From: Gammaproteobacteria bacterium
Lineage (GTDB): Bacteria > Pseudomonadota > Gammaproteobacteria > Steroidobacterales > Woeseiaceae
Assembly: GCA_029865385.1 (NCBI GenBank)
Contig: JAOUGX010000032.1
Coordinates: forward strand, 1 to 33,210
Direction: 5' to 3'
DNA length: 33,210 bases
This document shows positions 5,858-25,074 of this stretch, piece after piece; the stretch's first letter is position 1; the number at the start of each line of letters is the position of its first letter. Under the pieces are notes generated by a model. It searched no databases and was not told the DNA's origin. It was given only the letters and a program-made list of their open reading frames with translations. The position numbers and the translations under genes were made by a program.

Positions 5858-5877
5858 CGGGGACAGTGACCCTGATT
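5858..5877. repeat. REP-like repeat, family A, half copy (copy 2)
   Basis: CGGGGACAGTGACCCTGATT is one arm of family A; the matching arm is absent. It lies just upstream of the nucleotidyltransferase promoter. Confidence 0.75.
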
Positions 5878-14930: not shown

Positions 14931-14954
14931 AAAAATGGGGTCGAACGGATTTTT
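14931..14954. repeat. REP-like repeat, family D, copy 1
   Basis: AAAAATGGGGTCGAACGGAT followed by TTTT. The core GGGGTCGAA recurs at 28181 and 33180. The stop codon of the minus-strand lipoprotein gene (14953-14955) lies inside the element. Confidence 0.7.
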
Positions 14955-15591
14955 ACCAGAGGGTCGCGCTTATTCGGTCGGCGACCTGGGCAGCGATACG
15001 CTTGGCAGTGGCTTCGTCCGTCGGGCCGCCCTGCACCTCGACGAAGAACAGCGCGTCGTCGCGGCAAACCAGCAGTTTTGCCCAGCCGAATGACTCCAGG
15101 AACTCCCACTTTGCCGTTCCACCGAACAACGCTTCCGTTACCTCTTCTTCGTAGATGCCATGGCACTGCACTGTGCCACCTGGAAACTGATCGCGGCGGC
15201 TGACCCATACGTTCATGCTGCCGCCGTCGCCCCAGTTGTTCCAGCTGCAAGCCTCGGCCTGCCAGGATGACGATTCTCCGGTATCGGCGTTCTGCACGTT
15301 CTTGAACTCATGCGCATATTCCGGCGCCTCCACCGTCGCGCCCAGAAGCGCGGCGGCGGCTTCCTTGTCGAACAGTGTGCAGGGATAGCGCACCGCACTT
15401 CGCGCGGCTTCTTTGGCGAGTTCCTCGTCGATAATGGGTTCTGCTTCCTGCCACACGGCTTCGAGCTCCGCCTGGCTTGGCTCGCGATCCGGCGACGGTG
15501 TTGTACTGCCGTCACTGCAGCCGGCGAGCGCGGCAAGACCAAGTATTGAACAAGCAGCGATGTCTTGTGCAATCGACTTGTTATTCATCAC
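14953..15591 (-). CDS. Lipoprotein, second of two related genes
   Basis: A 212-residue lipoprotein with lipobox ALAGC (Cys25). The start can be GTG at 15591, overlapping the upstream stop by four bases, or ATG at 15588; both are coupled to the upstream gene. The mature part has a Pro/Glu-rich linker, then PCTLFDKEAAAALLGATVEA, a single SWQAEACSWNNWG segment and a C-terminal helix (ATAKRIAAQVADRISATL). The arrangement Cys, small hydrophobic helix, LG, then an internal Cys-bearing strand is the same as in the neighbouring lipoprotein, so the two are probably paralogues, similar in style to DUF3558-like lipoproteins. Function unknown. Confidence 0.65.
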   Translation of the reverse strand: MMNNKSIAQDIAACSILGLAALAGCSDGSTTPSPDREPSQAELEAVWQEAEPIIDEELAKEAARSAVRYPCTLFDKEAAAALLGATVEAPEYAHEFKNVQNADTGESSSWQAEACSWNNWGDGGSMNVWVSRRDQFPGGTVQCHGIYEEEVTEALFGGTAKWEFLESFGWAKLLVCRDDALFFVEVQGGPTDEATAKRIAAQVADRISATLW

Positions 15592-16166
15592 AGAGTATCC
15601 ACGATGTATCGAGCCAGCGCCTGTCGCGCCGCGGCCATATTACCGGCGTCGCTACCGCCGAAACTGATGATCGCGAGTTGGTAGTAGTCGTTCCAGTAGA
15701 CGACCAGTTGCTGGTAGTTGCCGTTATCATCGAAATCGTAAGCGATATCGCCCAGCCCCCGGATGTCCGTGCCCGCTTCGATGGCATTGGCCACGTCTTC
15801 TCCGATGCCGAGCGAATCTTTTTTCTTGCGCGAAGCGTCTGCATCCGCCTGGCGGGAGTGCTCCTGCTTCGCGCCCGAACGGCTGATCTGCACCGACAGC
15901 CCCATGCCGCCGCCGTCGAACTTATAAGAGCACTGCGAGAACGCATTCTTGCCACTGGCAGACTCCATGGAAGGCGTTGCGTCGGACACGGGAATGCCGA
16001 AAATTCGCGATACCTCGCTAGCCGGCGCAATGTCGCAGGCATGCAGTTCGCCGCTCGGTTCCGCTGCTCCGTCGCTGTCGGCACCGCAGGAGGCGAGGAG
16101 CAGTGTAAGGAATGCGACAGCAACCCATTGACCACACGGACGCTGGGCTAATTCGGTTTTGTTCAT
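15588..16166 (-). CDS. Lipoprotein, first of two related genes
   Basis: A 192-residue lipoprotein; ATG at 16166 is preferred because GGAG lies at proper distance and MNKTELAQ leads into a lipoprotein signal (LLLASC, Cys27). The mature part has HACDIAPASEVSRIFGIPVS, a second Cys in FSQCSYKFDGGG, an Arg/Lys/Asp-rich middle (about residues 100-125) and a C-terminal beta region with DDNGNYQQLVVYWNDYYQLA. Its layout parallels the downstream lipoprotein. It lies 30 bases after the large exported protein gene and overlaps the next gene, forming a three-gene minus-strand operon. Confidence 0.65.
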   Translation of the reverse strand: MNKTELAQRPCGQWVAVAFLTLLLASCGADSDGAAEPSGELHACDIAPASEVSRIFGIPVSDATPSMESASGKNAFSQCSYKFDGGGMGLSVQISRSGAKQEHSRQADADASRKKKDSLGIGEDVANAIEAGTDIRGLGDIAYDFDDNGNYQQLVVYWNDYYQLAIISFGGSDAGNMAAARQALARYIVDTL

Positions 16167-16196
16167 GATCTTTTTCTCCATTGTGCAGTTCCGCGC

Positions 16197-19100
16197 TCAT
16201 GGGACAGCTGTGAGCTGCAGGCGATCGACGCCGACGATGTAGTCTGTCGACTGCTCGTTCTTGCCGGTCACTTCGAACGCAAGCTCGTGCCGGCCGGCAG
16301 CCAGCGGGTAACGCCCTAGCAATACCTGGCGAAGCGCGACTTGCGGGTTGTATCCGTCCTGCTGGCTCGGGTGGCTGCCGTCGATGTACACGGTGAAGCG
16401 GCCGAAGTCCGGCGCCGTCGTATAAAAGAGTACGAGGTCGTAAGTGCCAGCATTGGACACGATGAATTCGGTCAGCATATGCGGCTTGCTTCCCACAGGA
16501 GCCGGAGGCCGCCAGAAGAGCTGCGCATTGCCGCCCCAAGCGGCGCCGAAGCCGGACATGTCCTGGCGAATCATTTGTCCCGCGGATACGGCCGCCGTGG
16601 CGATCAGCGACTCCGCCTCGACGACCAGCGGCGCAATGCCGAGATCGTTCAGGTCGTTGCTCATCGCGACGGCACCCTGAACCGTGCGCACCGAAGCAAA
16701 CTCTTTCTGTGGGTCGAATGCAGAGTTCGAAACCTGCCCGGCGGCACCCGTGAAATTCTCCGGCGCGTTGCTCCCCAGATCGGGTGACGGAGGATCCGGT
16801 GACGGAACAGGCCGGGGTGACGCGGTCGCCCCTTCGCGTTCCAGTTTCCTGGACGGAACTTCCGGCTGCGGATTCAGTGACGGGTTCACCATGTCATCGG
16901 TGCCTGCCCGTTTCGACGACGGCACTTCCGGTTGTGGATTCAATGACGGATTGACCAGGCTATTATTGCCTCGCGCGGGCGCGTCGGCTCCATTTACTCG
17001 AAATCGCCCATCACGCGCGGTCGGCACGGCTTCCGATGGTAGCGCTCTTACCGGCAGCGTCGATGCGGCCTCGGGTTTGTAGGCCCGATAGGTGAGTCCG
17101 TCCGAACGTGCACTTACGTCGAACGTCACGGCGGAGTTGAGGTAAGTCGGCGAACCCTCTGCCGCATAGCGAAAGGCGTTATCGATCTGACAAGACACTT
17201 CGTGTGCGCCAGGGTCCTCAAACTTCCATGTCTTAGTGCCCGCAAAGTCATTGCCATCCTCGGGCGAGCTAGTCACGCCGACGGTATTGCCGTCTATTGC
17301 GACAATGCCGGAATACCGACTACCGGATTCCTCCGATCGTTGCAGAATCTGCATCGCGGTTCGGGCGGCGGCGTCGCACTGCGGCCAGTCGACGTCTCGC
17401 GTGACTTTTTTGAACGAGCACTGAATCTGAAATTGATCGTTGACCAGAAGTCGTGTTGAGCTGACCGATACGACGGGTTGTTGCGGCACGTAATAGCTGA
17501 CTGCCATGCGGCATGGGTTGGGCGGCGCTTCCGCTGCGCCCTGTTGCGAATTCAAGGCGCGAATCGCCGGCGCGGCAGTTCGTGCGGGTGCGGTGTTCGG
17601 ATCCGGTTGGCCCGGAACCGGTCCCGACATCGTCGTCATCGACGGGACGGACTGGGCCACCGAACCGGGCAATGCGCTTGCCTGGCCGGCATTTGCCACC
17701 GGCGAAGGAACCGGCTGGCCGCCCGGGCTTGCCGTCCGCGCCGGACCCGCTGCCGGGGGTGGCAGGTTTTGTGGCGGCGGATTTACCGGAGACAGGGTCT
17801 GGTTTTCGTAGATCTCCTTGTTGGAATCGGCCGCGGTGAAAACCGTCTGATAACAGACGTTATTCGCACCGTTCTTGTTTGGATCCGGCGGACAGCTCTC
17901 GATGGCTGGCATCGCGAGGTCGCCGGTCAGTGTCGGCATTTTCGTTTGATGCGGGCAATTGATCGCGAGCGGATCCCAAAGTGTTTTGCAAAACTTCGAA
18001 TCGAATGCGGGCGGTAACGATCGATGACCCGTGTCGGGCGACAACTCTGCTGTCGGTCCGCCGTTGAGCACTGCAAGGATCTGCTTCGCGCGAGCCTCCT
18101 GCTCCAGGAATTCCTTGTCCGGGTTGTAAGCGCAACGCATCTGGATCCGGCTGGAGGGTACTTCGAACTTCGCCCTGAACGTATCGAGCAGTGCGTTGCA
18201 GGTTTGCTCTTTCCACGGACGGGAACATTGCACACGCGGATCGAAGTCGCCGAACGTACCTTTCGACAGCGGCACGTAACGGCAGCGCGTGTCACCAAGT
18301 ACGTCGACCAGTGACGCACCAAGCGACTGAGCCGTCTTGTCGCGATCTGCTTTGCAGTAACGGTTCTTGCCGTAGTCCTTGTAGGACTGGTTGACGCAGA
18401 TGCTGAATGAGATGTGACTCTGGCAGTTGAACGAGAACGACGTGCCGGGGACCGACGGGCAGCCGAGCGAATTCAGACCCTCTTTGATTTTCGTCAGCCG
18501 TTTTTCTTCTTCGACCTGGGCCTGGAAGAATTGCTGGGCAGCACCTTTGAAACAGATCCAGTTCGTCAGTGACTTCGGTGCAATATCGGCGACCTCGGGC
18601 ACGCCATAATTGCGGCTGCCGGTCAGTCGTTCATTTACCCAGAATCCGCACTCCCGCCACAGGCCTTTGAAAAATTCCTGGTCGCCTGCGTTTATTCCTG
18701 TATGGGCAGCCATCAGCGACACACCCGAGGCATCGCTTACAAGTGCCGCCCAGTCCGTGATGGGAAGTTTGTTGACGTATTGCAGCAAGGTAGCGCCCTG
18801 GCCGTACCGATCGACGGCTCGCTGCCTGACCGCATCGGCAAGGAAACCGGTCGCGTAGGTTCCGGGCATGGTCTGTACGAGCTTCACCAGCGCCTCGGAT
18901 TCGGCGCGCAATCTCAGCTCGAAAGTTTGGCAATGGACGGTAATCGTTTCCAGGCACTCTTTCATTTCCTTATCGTCGAACCCCAGGTCCTGCCGGTTTT
19001 GAGTGAGCCGCTGCAGCGCGCGCTTGTACATCAGCGATCGGTACGCGGCGTTGTACAGCTCCTCGGCCGAGATGCTCTCCGCACCCCCACCGCCCATGAT

Positions 19101-19805
19101 GGCGATCGTCGCGTCGTTGGCCAGTCCGGCCGCTGCCGCCATCACGCTGCCGACTGCATCGGCGAGGTCCTTGATGGCCTTGATCGCTTCGCCAAGCAGC
19201 CCGCAGGCTTCGTCAGCCAGCGGCACACCCTCGTTTTTTACGATTTCGCAGGCCAGGTTGAAGCCGACTGTGGTCACGAGTTTCCAGACGTTCACGTTCG
19301 GGAAGTCGCGGACGATCACCAGAACCTCGTGCACGACCGGTTCCACGTTATCCAGAATTCGCGTTGCGAACTCGCCGCAGATAAAGGGTTGCAGCGGCCC
19401 GGAGACCGCAAGCGCACCGGTGCAGGCGACCTGTCCCAGCAACTTGACGCCGGTGAGTTCCAGCACGCGCAGCCAGTCTTCCTTCAGCACCGCACGCACG
19501 ATATCGACGGCGGTCTTTACCATCGGGTCGTCCGGAACGAATTCCGCTGCCTTTTTCTCCGCAGCCGACGTGGCATCGGATTTCAGGTCGTCGCCGATTT
19601 GCTGAAAATTCACGCATTGCTCTGGCGAATGCTTCGCAAAGCAGGCAATGAGTTCGCTCGCATCGACGATTTTCGGGTCGATCAACTGCGCCTTTTCAAG
19701 GAATTGCAGGATGGTCTTTATGTCGTCGGCGACGGCGGTCGCCGGCGGTGCCAGCAGCGCCAGCGACAAGGCAAAGCAGGCTGCAAGTTTTCTGATCTTT
19801 TTCAT
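16197..19805 (-). CDS. Giant exported multidomain protein with C-terminal carbohydrate-binding-like domain
   Basis: About 1202 residues. ATG at 19805 is chosen: GAGG lies six bases upstream and MKKIRKLAACFALSLALLAP is a classic signal peptide ending ATAVA. Residues about 25-300 are helical with many Cys, and residues about 300-640 are Cys-rich (for example CVNQSYKDYGKNRYC). A Pro-rich linker (about 650-740) leads to an Ig-like beta domain (about 745-905, from SYYVPQQPVVSVSSTRLLVN). A second linker repeats VNPSLNPQPEVPS twice (about 950-985). The last 140 residues, starting VVEAES and including GTYDLVLFYTT and RFTVYIDG, resemble CBM6-like or related jelly-roll domains. I recognise no family for the whole. 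It heads an operon with two lipoproteins and faces a kinase-sigma operon. Confidence 0.7.
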   Translation of the reverse strand: MKKIRKLAACFALSLALLAPPATAVADDIKTILQFLEKAQLIDPKIVDASELIACFAKHSPEQCVNFQQIGDDLKSDATSAAEKKAAEFVPDDPMVKTAVDIVRAVLKEDWLRVLELTGVKLLGQVACTGALAVSGPLQPFICGEFATRILDNVEPVVHEVLVIVRDFPNVNVWKLVTTVGFNLACEIVKNEGVPLADEACGLLGEAIKAIKDLADAVGSVMAAAAGLANDATIAIMGGGGAESISAEELYNAAYRSLMYKRALQRLTQNRQDLGFDDKEMKECLETITVHCQTFELRLRAESEALVKLVQTMPGTYATGFLADAVRQRAVDRYGQGATLLQYVNKLPITDWAALVSDASGVSLMAAHTGINAGDQEFFKGLWRECGFWVNERLTGSRNYGVPEVADIAPKSLTNWICFKGAAQQFFQAQVEEEKRLTKIKEGLNSLGCPSVPGTSFSFNCQSHISFSICVNQSYKDYGKNRYCKADRDKTAQSLGASLVDVLGDTRCRYVPLSKGTFGDFDPRVQCSRPWKEQTCNALLDTFRAKFEVPSSRIQMRCAYNPDKEFLEQEARAKQILAVLNGGPTAELSPDTGHRSLPPAFDSKFCKTLWDPLAINCPHQTKMPTLTGDLAMPAIESCPPDPNKNGANNVCYQTVFTAADSNKEIYENQTLSPVNPPPQNLPPPAAGPARTASPGGQPVPSPVANAGQASALPGSVAQSVPSMTTMSGPVPGQPDPNTAPARTAAPAIRALNSQQGAAEAPPNPCRMAVSYYVPQQPVVSVSSTRLLVNDQFQIQCSFKKVTRDVDWPQCDAAARTAMQILQRSEESGSRYSGIVAIDGNTVGVTSSPEDGNDFAGTKTWKFEDPGAHEVSCQIDNAFRYAAEGSPTYLNSAVTFDVSARSDGLTYRAYKPEAASTLPVRALPSEAVPTARDGRFRVNGADAPARGNNSLVNPSLNPQPEVPSSKRAGTDDMVNPSLNPQPEVPSRKLEREGATASPRPVPSPDPPSPDLGSNAPENFTGAAGQVSNSAFDPQKEFASVRTVQGAVAMSNDLNDLGIAPLVVEAESLIATAAVSAGQMIRQDMSGFGAAWGGNAQLFWRPPAPVGSKPHMLTEFIVSNAGTYDLVLFYTTAPDFGRFTVYIDGSHPSQQDGYNPQVALRQVLLGRYPLAAGRHELAFEVTGKNEQSTDYIVGVDRLQLTAVP

Positions 19806-19850
19806 AATCGACCTCATCGGCGACGCGAAGCGGGCATCAGGGAAAATTTC

Positions 19851-19876
19851 CGCTCATACAGGTCGCTCATACAGGT
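19851..19876. repeat. Tandem 13-bp direct repeat over a predicted -10 box
   Basis: CGCTCATACAGGT occurs twice in immediate succession (19851-19863 and 19864-19876). On the minus strand each copy contains TATGAG, so the -10 hexamer of the large-protein operon is duplicated. It may also be a paired binding site. Confidence 0.8.
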
Positions 19877-19893
19877 GAAAACGGAATCCGCAA
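19866..19893 (-). promoter_or_regulatory. Possible promoter of the large exported protein operon
   Basis: On the minus strand, TTGCGG (19893-19888) and TATGAG (19871-19866) are 16 bases apart. An alternative uses TTTTCA as -35 with a 17-base spacer to the second TATGAG (19858-19853). The leader to the ATG at 19805 would be roughly 40 to 55 bases. Confidence 0.4.
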
Positions 19894-19945
19894 CGGCGAG
19901 GGGCCATCGTATAGCCGAATTCGACGGCAGATCGGCGCAAAGCCC

Positions 19946-19974
19946 TTGCCGCTCGGGAATGACCGGCCGACAAT
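19946..19974 (+). promoter_or_regulatory. Possible promoter of the kinase-sigma operon
   Basis: TTGCCG (19946-19951) and GACAAT (19969-19974) are 17 bases apart. The expected start near 19981 leaves a short leader before the ATG at 20004 and argues against the TTG at 19986 as start codon. Confidence 0.5.
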
Positions 19975-20003
19975 AGTCCCGGGATTTGCGCGGACTGGCA
20001 GGG

Positions 20004-22925
20004 ATGACGGAAAAGGGCACAGGGCACCGCTGGGAACAGGTCGAAGACCTTTTTCATGAGGCGCTACTGCAACCGCCGCAAGAGCGTGCCACTTTCGTCG
20101 CCGCGGCCTGCGGCGGGAACGAATCGCTGCGACTGGAAGTGGAGGCGATGCTCGCGGCCGACGAAAGCGAGGACGGCGTCCTCGACCGGTCGCTGGCAAG
20201 CCTGGACGTCGGTACCGATCCCGCGCCGATGGCGGACGGCCAGATCGTCGGCTCCTGGCGGATCCTGTCTGAGCTCGGACGTGGCGGCATGGGAATCGTC
20301 TACCTGGCGGAACGCGCCGACGGGACCTATGAACAGCAGGTCGCTCTCAAAGTAATCCGCGGCGGCGTATTTGCGGCCGACATGGAACCGCACTTCGTTC
20401 GCGAGAGGCGGATTCTCGGCCGATTGCAGCATCCGAGTATCGCGCGCCTTATTGACGCCGGCGCCACTGCCGACGGGATGCCGTTCCTCGTCATGGAGCT
20501 CGTGCACGGCGAGCCGATCACCGACTGGTGCAGGAACAACAAGCTCGGCATTCGCGAGAGGCTGCAGCTGATGCTGCAGGTTTGCGATGCTCTGCAGCAC
20601 GCGCACCGAAACCTGGTCGTTCACAGGGACCTGAAGCCCGGCAATATTCTCGTGACCGGCGACGGTAACGTGCGGCTCCTGGATTTCGGTGTGGCCCGCC
20701 TGCTGGCGGGCCCGGATGACGATCAGCAAATACTGACCCGGGCCGGCTTCTTCCATCTGACCCCAGAGTACGCGGCGCCGGAGCAAATCAGCGGCGAAGC
20801 GATAACCACGGCAACCGACATTTTCGCGCTCGGCGCGGTGCTCTACGAACTGTCGACCAACAACCGTCCCCGAGAAAACGTTGCCGGTTCGCCCTCGGCC
20901 GTGCTGCGCGCAATGGAACAGCCTATAGGCCTGCCGAGCAAGGCGCCGGAGCTGGCGGCGAACTGGCGATCGCAACTACAGGGCGACATCGATGCGATTG
21001 TCCGCAAAGCGACAGCACCGGATGCGTCGCGGCGATACGCGAGCGTCGCTGCACTGGCCGAAGACATCCGACGCTATCTCGCACACGAACCGGTTATGGC
21101 TCGGCCCGAGAGCGTTGCGTATCGCAGCGGCAAATTCATCCGCCGACATCGCGTCGGCGTTGCTGCGATGCTCGCGATCGCCATTGCCGTTGCCGGCGGC
21201 ATCACAGCAACGGCATGGCAGGCGGGCGAAGCGGCGGCGCAGGCAAAGAAAGCGGAAGCAGTCAAAGAGTTTGTACTGAGCTTGTTCGCCGGCGTTGATC
21301 CCGCGCAGGCGCTCGGCGAGGAGCTGACTGCCAGGCAACTTGTGGACTCGGGCGCCACGCGCATTCAGAGCGAACTCGTAAATGAACCCGTCGTACGCGC
21401 AGAAGTCCTGACGTTTCTCGCCGACATGTACGACAAGATGGACCAGGACGATCGCGCCATCGAGCTGGTCGGCGATGCGCTGGCACTGATCGAAGGCCCG
21501 CAAAGCACCGAGTTGTCAGAAGCCTTGCTGGTACAGGGCCGCATACTGGTTGGCAGGAGCGAAGACGAGGCCGGCATCGATTCATTGCAACGCGCATTGC
21601 CGATGTTCGAGGATCGCGATGAGTACTTGCAATCGGCGGAAGCGATGGACCTGATCGCGATAGCCCGCTCCCGGCAGGGCGACATCGCTGAATCTGTCCG
21701 CCTGACGGAGAACGCGCTCAAATTGCGAATAGCCGCTTTGGGCGAAGACAATAAAGAGGTTGCCGCCTCCTATAACAATCTCGGCGTACTTGCGCGCACA
21801 CAGGGTAACTATGCGGTAGCGCGCGAGAACTACGAACGGGCGCTTGATATCCGTCGCCGTGTATTGCCGGCAGATCATCCGCAGATCGCGATTTCACTGA
21901 ACAACCTCGGCGCCCTGTTCTATGCCGAGGGTGACTACGCCCGCGCGGCGGACTATTTTTCCGAATCGCTGGAAATCAACGGTCGTGTAAACGGCACCGC
22001 TCATCACGACACCATTGCGGCATTGAACAACCTCGGCTTCATGCAGATGCGGCTTGGCCGCATCGCCGAGGCGGAACGCTCTTTGACCGAGGTTTACAAC
22101 TACTGGCTTGAGCAGGGAAAAGCCGACCACCCGAATGCGCTGGTGACGAGAGTGAACATCGCTACGGTGCATCGTACGGCAGGCGACTTCGAGGGGGCGC
22201 TGGCGGAATACAGGGCCGTTGAACCGCTTATAGTCGAAAAACTCGGGCCGGATCACCCGATTGTCGCGGCAACGCTGCACCACCAGGCCCGCAGCCTGCT
22301 CGAGCTCGGCGAGGTCGATGCAGCAACTCCGTTGCTCGAACGGGCCCTTGCGATACGCGACGAGGTGCTGGGGGCGGAGCACCCGGACAGCGCCGAGATC
22401 ATCCGGGACCAGGGCTTGATAGCGCTCCTTGAAGGCGATTTTCAACTGGCGCGCGAGCGAACAGACCGTGCACTGGAGATGCAACGAAGCAAGTTGCCGA
22501 TCACCCATCCGACCCTGTCCATGAGCATGATTCAGCTCGGCCGCGTGGCACTGGCCGAGGGAGAAATTCCGCAGGCCTTGCAATTGCAGAAGGAAGCGGT
22601 GGAACGACTCGCTTCCCTGCTGCCGGCGGACAACCCGGAGCGCAGCGAAGCGCAATTCGAGTTCGGGCGCTCGCTGCTTGCCGAGGGCAATACCATCGAC
22701 GCCGTCATGCAATTCAAAGCGGCTCGCAGTGTATTGGTATCGCGTTTCGGCGACGGGTCATGGCAGGTTTCGAAAGTCGACATCTGTTTGGCCGCCGCGC
22801 TGGAAATGCAGGGGCGACAGGACGACGCGTTGGCATTGCGGGAAATCGCCATGTCGCACATAGAAGCGCAACTGGAAGACAGCCATCCTCTGCGCAGGCA
22901 ACTGCGCGACGGTCAACTCCTGTGA
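20004..22925 (+). CDS. Membrane Ser/Thr protein kinase with C-terminal TPR domain
   Basis: A 973-residue protein starting MTEKGTGHRWEQVEDLFHEA, the usual opening of this kinase type. The Hanks-type kinase domain spans about residues 80-355. It has the glycine loop LGRGGMG (about 91-97), the ALKV lysine (about 115), HRDLKPGN (from His207), DFG (227-229) and PEYAAPEQ, so all catalytic residues are present. A single membrane helix (about 384-405) leads to an extracytoplasmic TPR region to the end, with kinesin-light-chain-like units such as EVAASYNNLGVLARTQGNYA and QIAISLNNLGALFYAEGDYA. The stop overlaps the GTG of the ECF sigma gene by four bases. It probably senses an envelope signal and phosphorylates the sigma factor or another partner; the partner is inferred. 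Confidence 0.9.
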   Translation: MTEKGTGHRWEQVEDLFHEALLQPPQERATFVAAACGGNESLRLEVEAMLAADESEDGVLDRSLASLDVGTDPAPMADGQIVGSWRILSELGRGGMGIVYLAERADGTYEQQVALKVIRGGVFAADMEPHFVRERRILGRLQHPSIARLIDAGATADGMPFLVMELVHGEPITDWCRNNKLGIRERLQLMLQVCDALQHAHRNLVVHRDLKPGNILVTGDGNVRLLDFGVARLLAGPDDDQQILTRAGFFHLTPEYAAPEQISGEAITTATDIFALGAVLYELSTNNRPRENVAGSPSAVLRAMEQPIGLPSKAPELAANWRSQLQGDIDAIVRKATAPDASRRYASVAALAEDIRRYLAHEPVMARPESVAYRSGKFIRRHRVGVAAMLAIAIAVAGGITATAWQAGEAAAQAKKAEAVKEFVLSLFAGVDPAQALGEELTARQLVDSGATRIQSELVNEPVVRAEVLTFLADMYDKMDQDDRAIELVGDALALIEGPQSTELSEALLVQGRILVGRSEDEAGIDSLQRALPMFEDRDEYLQSAEAMDLIAIARSRQGDIAESVRLTENALKLRIAALGEDNKEVAASYNNLGVLARTQGNYAVARENYERALDIRRRVLPADHPQIAISLNNLGALFYAEGDYARAADYFSESLEINGRVNGTAHHDTIAALNNLGFMQMRLGRIAEAERSLTEVYNYWLEQGKADHPNALVTRVNIATVHRTAGDFEGALAEYRAVEPLIVEKLGPDHPIVAATLHHQARSLLELGEVDAATPLLERALAIRDEVLGAEHPDSAEIIRDQGLIALLEGDFQLARERTDRALEMQRSKLPITHPTLSMSMIQLGRVALAEGEIPQALQLQKEAVERLASLLPADNPERSEAQFEFGRSLLAEGNTIDAVMQFKAARSVLVSRFGDGSWQVSKVDICLAAALEMQGRQDDALALREIAMSHIEAQLEDSHPLRRQLRDGQLL

Positions 22926-23473
22926 GCGGCGAGATCACTCAGCTGCTTAGAGCTGTGTCCGCGGGTGACAACGATGCCGTATCGCAATTGTTCGAGATCG
23001 TGTACGAAGATTTGCGCGCCAGGGCGCGCGCGCAGCTCGCCGGATCGGCGTCGCATACACTCGGGGCAACGGCGCTGGTGCACGAGGCGTATCTCAAGCT
23101 GACTGCCGGTGAGGCGCCCGAATGGAACGACCGCGCGCACTTTTACGGTGTTGCCGCTACCGCAATGCGGCATATCTCGATCGATCACGCCCGGGCGCGA
23201 CAGGCGCAGCGTCGCGGCGGCAATGCGGGCAAGGTGAACATCGACATCGCGCAAATTCCTGTCGATGACGCGGCGGAGTCGCTGCTCGCTCTCGACGCTG
23301 CACTCGATGCTCTGGAAAAAAGAAACGAACGACTGGCGAAACTCGTGGAGCTTCGATTCTTCGCCGGTCTGTCTGTCGAAGAATCCGCGACCGCACTGGC
23401 TATGTCGCCGCGCACGGTAAAACGTGACTGGCGTACCGCAAGGGCATTCATTCACGCACAGATGCCCGGCTAA
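22922..23473 (+). CDS. ECF-type RNA polymerase sigma factor (TIGR02999 family)
   Basis: A 183-residue sigma factor. GTG at 22922 overlaps the kinase TGA (GTGA) and is preferred over upstream in-frame ATGs inside the kinase gene. Region 2 is seen in VSQLFEIVYEDLRARARAQL and HTLGATALVHEAYLKL, then RAHFYGVAATAMRHISIDHA; region 4 helix-turn-helix is in RFFAGLSVEESATALAMSPR followed by TVKRDWRTARAF. This is the kinase-associated ECF type; in Vibrio parahaemolyticus the ECF sigma EcfP is activated by phosphorylation by the kinase PknT encoded next to it. No anti-sigma gene is present here, which fits kinase control. Targets are unknown, but the divergent large-protein operon is a natural candidate. 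Confidence 0.85.
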   Translation: MSGEITQLLRAVSAGDNDAVSQLFEIVYEDLRARARAQLAGSASHTLGATALVHEAYLKLTAGEAPEWNDRAHFYGVAATAMRHISIDHARARQAQRRGGNAGKVNIDIAQIPVDDAAESLLALDAALDALEKRNERLAKLVELRFFAGLSVEESATALAMSPRTVKRDWRTARAFIHAQMPG

Positions 23474-23503
23474 GGTCGCCGAGTTCGGGGATGCCGAGTT
23501 CGA

Positions 23504-23545
23504 GGACAGTGACCCTAATTCAACGTTGAATTAGGGTCACTGTCC
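23504..23545. repeat. REP-like palindrome, family A, copy 5 (perfect 42 bp)
   Basis: A perfect palindrome with no spacer: the left half begins GGACAGTGACCCTAATTCAA, and the centre is CAAC|GTTG at 23524/23525. It lies 30 bases after the sigma-factor stop codon. The transcript would fold into a long hairpin but no U-run follows, so RNA stabilisation or attenuation is as likely as termination. Confidence 0.9.
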
Positions 23546-23684
23546 CCAATCTACTGGGGACGATGAGCCTGACTCCGGCGCGGGAATTAAAGCCACTGTT
23601 GTCAATCTAATGCTGGAAACCCGTATGTCGACGGGCCGATGACCGTGCTAACTTGACTTCGACGATGGCCGGAAGGAGCAAATC

Positions 23685-24176
23685 ATGACGACGCTTAAAT
23701 ATATCCATATACCGGTGTTGGTTCTTGCGCTGCTTGGCGCCTCCTGTGCGGTCTCGCCGGAAGAAACAAGCCGGCGGCTGGCGCTGGAAGCGGACATTCA
23801 ATCAATCCTTGCCCATCCGCTGGACCCTGAAGTCTTTGGCGAGACCAAGCGCTGCCTGGGCGAAAACGAATACCGAAGTTACCGCGCGCTGGACGACCGG
23901 CACATGTTGTTCGAAGGACGTGGTGACAAACTGTGGATCAACACGCTGCGAACCTCCTGCCCGGATCTTCGGCGTGGTCGCAACGATGTGCTTGTTGTGC
24001 GTTCGTTCACGTTGCGGCGTATCTGCGACTCGGATAACTTCGCTGTCGCGGATTGGTTCGACAGGCCCTGGTATCGCGGCTGGGGGGCGGGCATGACCTG
24101 CGTGTTCGGCGAGTTTCAGCCGGTGACCAAGGACCAGGTAGCGGATATCGAGGACCTGCTGAAATCAAAGCGCTGA
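23685..24176 (+). CDS. DUF6491-like small exported protein or lipoprotein
   Basis: A 163-residue protein with GGAAGGAG upstream of ATG 23685. The signal peptide MTTLKYIHIPVLVLALLGAS is followed by Cys21, so it may be lipidated although Gly at -3 is atypical. The mature part has the pattern RSYRALDDRHMLFEGRGDKL, then LRTSCPDLRRG and RRICDSDNFAVADW with paired Cys, and ends with a Cys-containing CVFGEFQPVTKDQV. This matches DUF6491 proteins, function unknown. It sits between two family A palindromes. Confidence 0.7.
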   Translation: MTTLKYIHIPVLVLALLGASCAVSPEETSRRLALEADIQSILAHPLDPEVFGETKRCLGENEYRSYRALDDRHMLFEGRGDKLWINTLRTSCPDLRRGRNDVLVVRSFTLRRICDSDNFAVADWFDRPWYRGWGAGMTCVFGEFQPVTKDQVADIEDLLKSKR

Positions 24177-24181
24177 AAGAT

Positions 24182-24229
24182 CGGCGACAGTGACCCTGTT
24201 TCAACGTTGAATTAGGGTCGCTGTCCCCG
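24182..24229. repeat. REP-like palindrome, family A, copy 6
   Basis: Arms meet at CAAC|GTTG (24205/24206). The left arm starts CGGCGACAGTGACCCTG and the right arm ends GGGTCGCTGTCCCCG, with a few mismatches. It starts six bases after the DUF6491 stop codon and ends 20 bases before the CAP-domain gene start. Confidence 0.9.
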
Positions 24230-24249
24230 AACCGGGAGAATCATCAAAA

Positions 24250-25074
24250 ATGAATCGCATTATCGCGACGTTGGTCTTTGTTGCCCTTCCAGCTTTTGCA
24301 GCAGCCGACGTGGCCGACGTCGTGAACAGCGTGCGCGCGGCATCCTGCGGCAAATCTTCGCGCGACATCGAACCGCTACGCCTGGAACCAGGACTCGACA
24401 ACGCCGCGCGTCGACTGGCCGACGGCATGAGTCTCCGGAACGCTACCGCCGAGGCGCAGTACCCGGCAAAGCTGTCAGCCTCGATCCGCGTCCGCACGCT
24501 GCAGGGCGAGCAGGATCTGGCGCGGACATTGCAACAGCGCTTTTGCGACATCGTCGCCGACCCTCGGCTGACCGAAATCGGTATCTACGAGCACGGCGCC
24601 GAAGCCTGGATAGTGCTGGCGACACCGTTCACGCCGCCGGACTCGGTCGATCCGGCCGAACTCAACCGGCAAGTGCTCGAGCTGATCAACGAGGCGCGCG
24701 AACAAGGTCGACGCTGCGGCCGCAAGAAATTTTCGGCGACCGTTCCGCTGCGGGCGAATGCTGCTCTGGAACAGGCGGCGCGAACGCACGCGCAGGACAT
24801 GGCAGAAAACAATTTCCTGGGGCATGAAGGCAGCTCAGGCAGCCTGCCGGGTGAGCGGGCAAATTCCGCAGGCTATGCCTGGTCGAGCGTTGGCGAGAAT
24901 GTCGCGGCGGGACAGACGACAGCCGAGGAAGTGGTCGGTACCTGGCTTGACAGCACCGGGCACTGCGAAAACCTGATGAGCCCGGATTATAGTGAAACGG
25001 GTGTCGCGCATGCGATCAGCCGCAGTTCGGACAAAGGCACCTACTGGGTGCAGATCTTCGGCAGTCCGAAGTGA
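24250..25074 (+). CDS. Secreted CAP-domain (SCP/PR-1-like) protein
   Basis: A 274-residue exported protein (signal peptide MNRIIATLVFVALPAFAAA). Residues about 135-274 form a CAP domain: LELINEAREQGRRCG, then THAQDMAENNFLGHEGSSGS with the conserved His pair, VGENVAAGQTTAEEVVGTWL with the conserved Glu, and DSTGHCENLMSPDYSETGVA. Residues about 20-130 look like a degenerate second CAP-like domain (VVNSVRAASCGKSSRDIEPL, LEPGLDNAARRLADGM, TEIGIYEHGAEAWIVL) lacking the His/Glu set. Bacterial CAP proteins are extracellular with poorly defined roles. It is bracketed by two family A palindromes. Confidence 0.85.
   Translation: MNRIIATLVFVALPAFAAADVADVVNSVRAASCGKSSRDIEPLRLEPGLDNAARRLADGMSLRNATAEAQYPAKLSASIRVRTLQGEQDLARTLQQRFCDIVADPRLTEIGIYEHGAEAWIVLATPFTPPDSVDPAELNRQVLELINEAREQGRRCGRKKFSATVPLRANAALEQAARTHAQDMAENNFLGHEGSSGSLPGERANSAGYAWSSVGENVAAGQTTAEEVVGTWLDSTGHCENLMSPDYSETGVAHAISRSSDKGTYWVQIFGSPK

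Follow-up and report, generated by a model that had tools for sequence, protein, structure and literature searches.

Two pairs of a Ser/Thr protein kinase and an extracytoplasmic function (ECF) sigma factor, both of group ECF43, are the closest described relatives of the system treated here. In PknT/EcfP of Vibrio parahaemolyticus, which responds to polymyxin, the kinase acts on a sigma factor of a group without anti-sigma factors; EcfP is reported to be devoid of the DAED motif of region sigma2.2 and carries STTA, the second Thr of which is phosphorylated by PknT (PMC8999054). In PknS/EcfK of Xanthomonas citri, which governs a type VI secretion system, PknS comprises an N-terminal extension, a kinase domain, a membrane segment and a periplasmic tetratricopeptide repeat (TPR) region, EcfK is phosphorylated at T51 within QATE and the ECF43 consensus reads QTTA; activation of PknS through its periplasmic region is named as future work (PMC13147305, 2026). 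This study describes a locus of a gammaproteobacterium of the family Woeseiaceae (assembly GCA_029865385.1, contig JAOUGX010000032.1, positions 1 to 33,210 of the forward strand; this whole stretch of 33,210 nucleotides is hereafter called the window) in which a kinase-sigma pair is divergent from an operon for a giant exported protein and two predicted lipoproteins, lp1 and lp2. We consider it rather likely that the locus is a phospho-switch of the ECF43 type whose sigma factor would drive a motif-borne operon, with lp1 placed near the kinase and the giant protein as output. A natural rearrangement at this locus singles out a candidate target promoter, and conservation in three loci points to a candidate sensing partner.

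The kinase gene (20004..22925, + strand) encodes 973 residues with matches to the Pkinase and TPR families (Pfam/NCBIfam). The kinase domain spans approximately residues 87-351 and keeps GRGGMG (92), HRDLKP (207), DFG (227) and APE (258); a hydrophobic segment lies at about 384-405 and TPRs fill the C-terminal half behind it, the plan also given for PknS (PMC13147305). The sigma gene (22922..23473, + strand, GTG start) overlaps the kinase stop by four bases, and its product scores 209.8 and 182.6 bits against TIGR02999 and PF07638, both above the cut-offs (126.15 for TIGR02999). A TPR kinase overlapping a TIGR02999-type sigma gene by four bases had been named in an earlier reading of the letters and open reading frames (ORFs), here the original prediction, and is confirmed, as is the lack of an anti-sigma gene: no recognisable anti-sigma family occurs among the neighbours scanned with Pfam and NCBIfam. 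Region sigma2.2 reads GATALVHEAYLK; the acidic DxxD, whose residues contact core RNA polymerase, is lost and GATA stands at the position of the EcfP/EcfK phospho-motif in place of DAED, with the Thr kept as in STTA of EcfP and at T51 of EcfK. The same Thr is found in 39 of 43 aligned related sigma factors (the one in the window, those of the loci L103 and L104 described below, and 40 from kinase loci of relatives). Because the sigma factor has lost the acidic sigma2.2 residues and carries the threonine phosphorylated in EcfP and EcfK, the pair fits, to judge by sequence, ECF43, of which we take the TIGR02999/PF07638 model type to be a marker; PknT/EcfP was also the known case to which the original prediction had pointed. 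Unlike PknS/EcfK with its secretion system, the output linked to the pair here is a giant exported protein plus lp1. The available part of PMC8999054 mentions neither a lipoprotein partner nor a giant-protein operon, the word 'lipoprotein' is absent from the main text of PMC13147305, and a literature search by titles and beginnings of abstracts gave no arrangement like this locus beyond PMC13147305.

Across a divergent region of 198 bp (19806-20003), whose length had been stated correctly, the - strand carries the gene for the exported protein (16197..19805; 1202 residues, 27 Cys, in agreement with the roughly 1200 announced), followed by lp1 (15588..16181, likely start at 16166, MNKTEL...) and lp2 (14953..15591), which overlaps lp1 by four bases. 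The claim of two similar lipoproteins stands in part: both ORFs are present, outside the interval given for the observation (16197-23473), and have N-termini that by eye are lipobox-like. Their similarity or paralogy is not demonstrated (BLASTP E 0.067 over 18 residues; comparison of an lp1 profile with lp2, probability 5%, E 0.0075).

Two orthologous loci, L103 (DDIP01000280.1, UBA1847) and L104 (DDIS01000178.1, UBA1844), were found by a scan of contigs with the kinase. Their kinases are 65% and 64% and their sigma factors 76% and 72% identical to those of the window, respectively. Divergent from the pair, L103 has a homologue of the large protein (45% over residues 1-705, then contig end); in L104 that place is taken by an unrelated exported protein of 769 residues and 14 Cys (phmmer scores below zero), and nothing in the genome of L104 matches the N-terminal profile of the large protein. 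In both loci a homologue of lp1 lies directly downstream of the sigma gene (33%, E 1e-27 in L103; 40%, E 6e-32 in L104), so that lp1 has changed sides, being behind the large gene in the window. No homologue of lp2 was found in L103 or L104. Kinase, sigma factor and lp1 are consequently present in all three loci and the large protein in two, a tally from which the frequency of the large protein away from the kinase is not readable, L103 and L104 having been chosen by kinase. Because the loci had been found with the kinase, lp1 was searched on its own: it occurs in 2 of 99 relatives of genome G399 (G399 and G400) and in 1 of 196 genomes of the order (that of the window), each time beside the pair. 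The kinase is a member of a paralogous family that has four places in its own genome; at E ≤ 1e-60, 22 of 60 genomes (its own among them) contain a match, and neither of two same-genus genomes (67% and 85% complete) does; at E ≤ 1e-140 a match occurs in 2 of 148 relatives of G399, again G399 and G400, the two genomes with lp1. Being kept in the three loci, with lp1 found only beside the pair, the constant module is by sequence comparison the kinase, the sigma factor and lp1, and the divergent exported protein varies; the large protein, whose place in L104 is occupied by an unrelated exported protein, does not belong to the constant part. The original prediction had proposed to judge the link by whether homologues of the large protein mostly occur without the pair. 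Such a pattern was not seen: searches with the large protein itself gave no full-length or N-terminal homologue in other genomes, and the single one found, in L103, is divergent from the orthologous pair, a biased observation because L103 was found through its kinase.

A bipartite element is probably the target promoter of the sigma factor. In the window it reads CGATGGCCC-N14-TTCCGTT (19880..19909, - strand), 74 nt before the ATG of the large gene; in the form CGMTGGCCC-N14-TTCCGTT it occurs before the large gene in the window and L103 and before lp1 in L103 and L104, that is at four sites, twice in the L103 locus, ending 34-74 nt before the start codon at each of them and with a spacer that by eye is not conserved. 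The motif scored 41.9 bits over the four upstream regions (20 shuffles: mean 32.5, sd 0.7, maximum 33.8), and when the 769-residue gene of L104 was added, whose segment misfits the motif, the best word still exceeded the shuffles (37.2 vs 30.2). TGGCCC-N13-17-TCCGTT gave 13 matches in the 142 fetched sequences (1.27 Mb, overlapping copies counted), all of them copies of the four sites, and reversed words gave 0; in 364 kb of the genome of the window only the window site was found, where base frequencies predict 0.04 per Mb. The element is best read as the target of the sigma factor because its boxes have ECF-like spacing and because it is kept before lp1 in the relatives and, in the window, before the large gene that precedes lp1. 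The central idea of the original prediction, that the pair controls the envelope operon across the divergent region, is partly supported at the sequence level: a promoter-like motif stands before the large gene, with the correction that the constant partner is lp1. For the kinase-sigma operon, a housekeeping-like promoter may be seen in TTGCCG-17-GACAAT (19946..19974, + strand), with the same spacing in the window, L103 and L104; this pattern has 8 matches in the fetched loci, all in loci covering those three places, and a stricter sigma-70 scan gave no site at 19946-19974.

No family was matched by lp1 in Pfam/NCBIfam, and lp2 has a weak, below-cut-off match to DUF3558, which lp1 does not share; a literature search for DUF3558 together with lipoprotein returned nothing. 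Searches for solved structures by sequence gave no match for lp1 up to E 1, one unrelated match at E 0.63 for the lp1 profile and nothing convincing for lp2. The lp1 model (AlphaFold2) had TiME of Mycobacterium smegmatis as its best Foldseek match (E 0.015). With VIA-align, where Z values within 1 are ties and best values of 7-8 are typical in the absence of true relatives, it aligned with TiME of M. tuberculosis (Z 11.3, 3.0 A, 139 residues), the extracellular (sensor) domain of PknH (Z 10.5, 3.9 A, 135 residues), Dip2269 (Z 10.2), the C-terminal part of RseB (Z 9.6, 2.9 A, 91 residues) and chain B of a Tse3-Tsi3 complex, presumed to be the immunity protein Tsi3 (Z 8.4). The overlap with the PknH sensor and TiME (Z 10.5-11.3 over 135-141 residues) comes from a model built on three sequences, with a mean pLDDT (predicted local distance difference test) of 66.8 and a pTM (predicted template modelling score) of 0.66, which tells against leaning heavily on it. 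The model predicts for lp1 the fold seen in mycobacterial TiME, in the PknH sensor domain and in the RseB C-terminal domain; unlike these, lp1 is a separate lipoprotein without sequence match to solved structures. A separate lipoprotein with the predicted fold of a Ser/Thr-kinase sensor beside a Ser/Thr kinase is suggestive and is not proof of function.

The large protein, which the original prediction did not recognise as a whole, indeed matched neither Pfam nor NCBIfam families at E ≤ 0.01; a resemblance was found for its C-terminal part. Residues 1115-1200 match the xanthan-binding module MiXBM (7ehg) at E 9.4e-8 as a single sequence, and a profile of the C-terminus with five relatives matches it over positions 34-140 at E 1.8e-8. 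No Pfam family covers this C-terminal domain itself, one of the six profile members matching Golvesin_C weakly (E 0.02). The C-terminus thus resembles a carbohydrate-binding domain by sequence, whereas the rest of the protein gave no match and no lyase domain was found. Within the order sample the domain recurs in 8 further genomes, of which 7 belong to a single genus; in L002-L008, from another genus of the order, it stands on otherwise different ORFs. The full-length protein has no match in other genomes (99 in the relatives search and 196 of the order, own included), nor has its N-terminal profile (185 of the class, own included). A scan of the contig collection also gave nothing, although L103 lies in that collection, which makes the test insensitive and the negatives for homologues of the large protein weak. 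The model of the N-terminal part (pLDDT 34.5) was unusable. The predicted leader of the large gene contains an exact tandem 13-bp direct repeat (CGCTCATACAGGT twice on the + strand; 19851..19876, feature on the - strand), which was not seen in the L103 upstream region.

Several points weigh against taking the bipartite element for the promoter of the sigma factor, and some of them would suit a pair that governs a scattered or distant regulon, the large gene being a mere neighbour and the 30-bp element either part of a leader or bound by some other regulator. L104 keeps the pair beside an unrelated divergent exported gene before which no clear motif copy was found (the best partial score is among the background), and the first box is without AAC, the word usual in the first box of ECF promoters. 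The motif was derived from four sites in three genomes, by trying three region sets at three lengths and after the alignments had been viewed. The shorter TGGCC-N15-17-TCCGT is less specific (24 matches in the fetched loci vs 4 for reversed words), TGGCC-N14-16-TCCGT gives three sites besides that of the window in the 364 kb, and this own-genome scan covers about 9% of the genome. A pattern GGCCATCG-N14-18-CGNCA, with 15, 18 and 17 matches in three genomes vs 6, 9 and 11 for the controls, yielded no clean regulon and was rejected. Also rejected, as over-represented throughout the window, was a promoter made of the single box CGATGGCC (8 in the window vs 2.46 expected, mostly inside called genes); the bipartite motif came after that trial and contains the box, whose frequency likewise suits a scattered regulon. 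The element nevertheless follows lp1 across the sigma gene, has two copies in the L103 locus, ends 34-74 nt from the start codons at its four sites and was not found elsewhere in the 1.27 Mb, and we judge a scattered regulon with a bystander large gene unlikely.

The remaining explanations concern the products of the operon. We hold it very improbable that the large protein serves as a secreted weapon or an effector of adhesin-like kind, against which the lipoproteins would shield the producing cell and which the pair would trigger under stress: no toxin domain was found in it (Pfam, NCBIfam and solved-structure sequence search), lp1 persists in L104 without it, and the alignment of the lp1 model with Tsi3, which would speak for an immunity function, scores below those with TiME, PknH and RseB, even if a relative of the pair, PknS/EcfK, controls a type VI secretion system (PMC13147305). 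We see a real, if not the favoured, possibility that lp1 and lp2 are ordinary envelope lipoproteins outside signalling and at most members of the regulon. A shared fold shows no function and the interaction of lp1 with the kinase is a proposal only; yet lp1 is, apart from kinase and sigma factor, the one gene recovered from all three loci, and wherever the genome searches detected it, it stood beside the pair.

If the locus is an ECF43-type phospho-switch, an envelope signal would lead the kinase to phosphorylate the GATA threonine of the sigma factor, which would then bind core RNA polymerase and recognise CGMTGGCCC-N14-TTCCGTT. In the window the sigma factor would transcribe the divergent operon of giant exported protein, lp1 and lp2, and in the two relatives it would transcribe lp1, starting directly behind the sigma gene; the pair would itself be read from its separate, housekeeping-like promoter. 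The least certain step concerns lp1, which would most likely work in the periplasm close to the kinase, either binding a ligand or taking part in feedback; the giant protein would be a lineage-variable exported output with a carbohydrate-binding-like end. A bolder version, which we find doubtful, is a closed loop in which the TPR region of the kinase reads the state of lp1 and the activated sigma factor makes lp1, together with the giant carbohydrate-binding protein in this lineage, from the dedicated promoter, so that the output is the input; related pairs of the order might each be wired in this way to a different giant exported protein.

Large exported proteins also occur beside other kinase-sigma pairs. 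In the genome of the window two of the three other pairs adjoin large lipoprotein-like ORFs, one divergent (L044; 1005 residues, Calx-beta and propeller repeats) and one downstream (L045; at least 978 residues, Calx-beta); the contig of the third (L043) stops shortly after the sigma gene. A homologous family of exported proteins of 1832-2690 residues is divergent from the kinase loci in L052, L059, L092 and L096, with NHL, cadherin-like and Ig-like repeats in L059 and L092, the two scanned with Pfam. In a count over 60 fetched regions and the window (regions hand-chosen, mainly from the top of the kinase-match list, some overlapping; home-made gene caller, regular-expression export test), exported products of at least 1000 residues made up 8 of 26 divergent neighbours vs 5 of 342 other ORFs, 1 of 60 same-strand and 0 of 30 convergent neighbours; a first count had given 8 of 26 vs 6 of 369. 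Two cases are doubtful (L080 has the appearance of an antisense ORF, and in L093 the orientation is not really divergent), and the 1851-residue ORF of L048 was left out as a small ORF intervenes; dropping the doubtful two leaves 6 of 26, or 5 of 25 if the window is not counted (one-sided p 2e-4). Four of the five cases that then remain are one homologous family, so that the enrichment is no more than suggestive.

By homology the family of giants takes in L052, L059, L077, L092 and L096, and L048 was added by eye; the ORFs of L048 and L077 extend beyond the ends of their stretches. The C-termini of the L048, L059, L092 and L096 proteins combine a proline run with glycine-rich and hydrophobic stretches, which we take to be reminiscent of GlyGly-CTERM sorting signals. 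Common motifs were sought upstream and rejected: over six regions of the family the best 30-base word scored 31.5 vs a shuffle maximum of 27.6 (n=12) at inconsistent distances, and over the three exported genes of the genome of the window the result was not clearly above shuffles. A second promoter-like motif, GTTTACAG[AC]TT-N10-G[CT]CGCATT, found by eye and post hoc, stands before the giants in L048 (7691, +), L059 (9372, -) and L096 (9353, -), L016 being a second copy of L048; it is absent in L092, L052 and L077 and was not found elsewhere in the fetched loci.

On the 3' side of the sigma gene, window positions 23685-25074 hold a DUF6491 lipoprotein-like gene and a gene for a CAP-domain exported protein, neither product having a significant match in L103 or L104. 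Just after the sigma gene lies a palindrome (23497-23552) with 28-nt arms that are 89% complementary. Its 16-base half-site recurs in the own-genome stretches L144 and L154 and 12-base parts of it at window positions 5861, 7257, 7287 and 7975; because of these recurrences it looks like a dispersed repeat.

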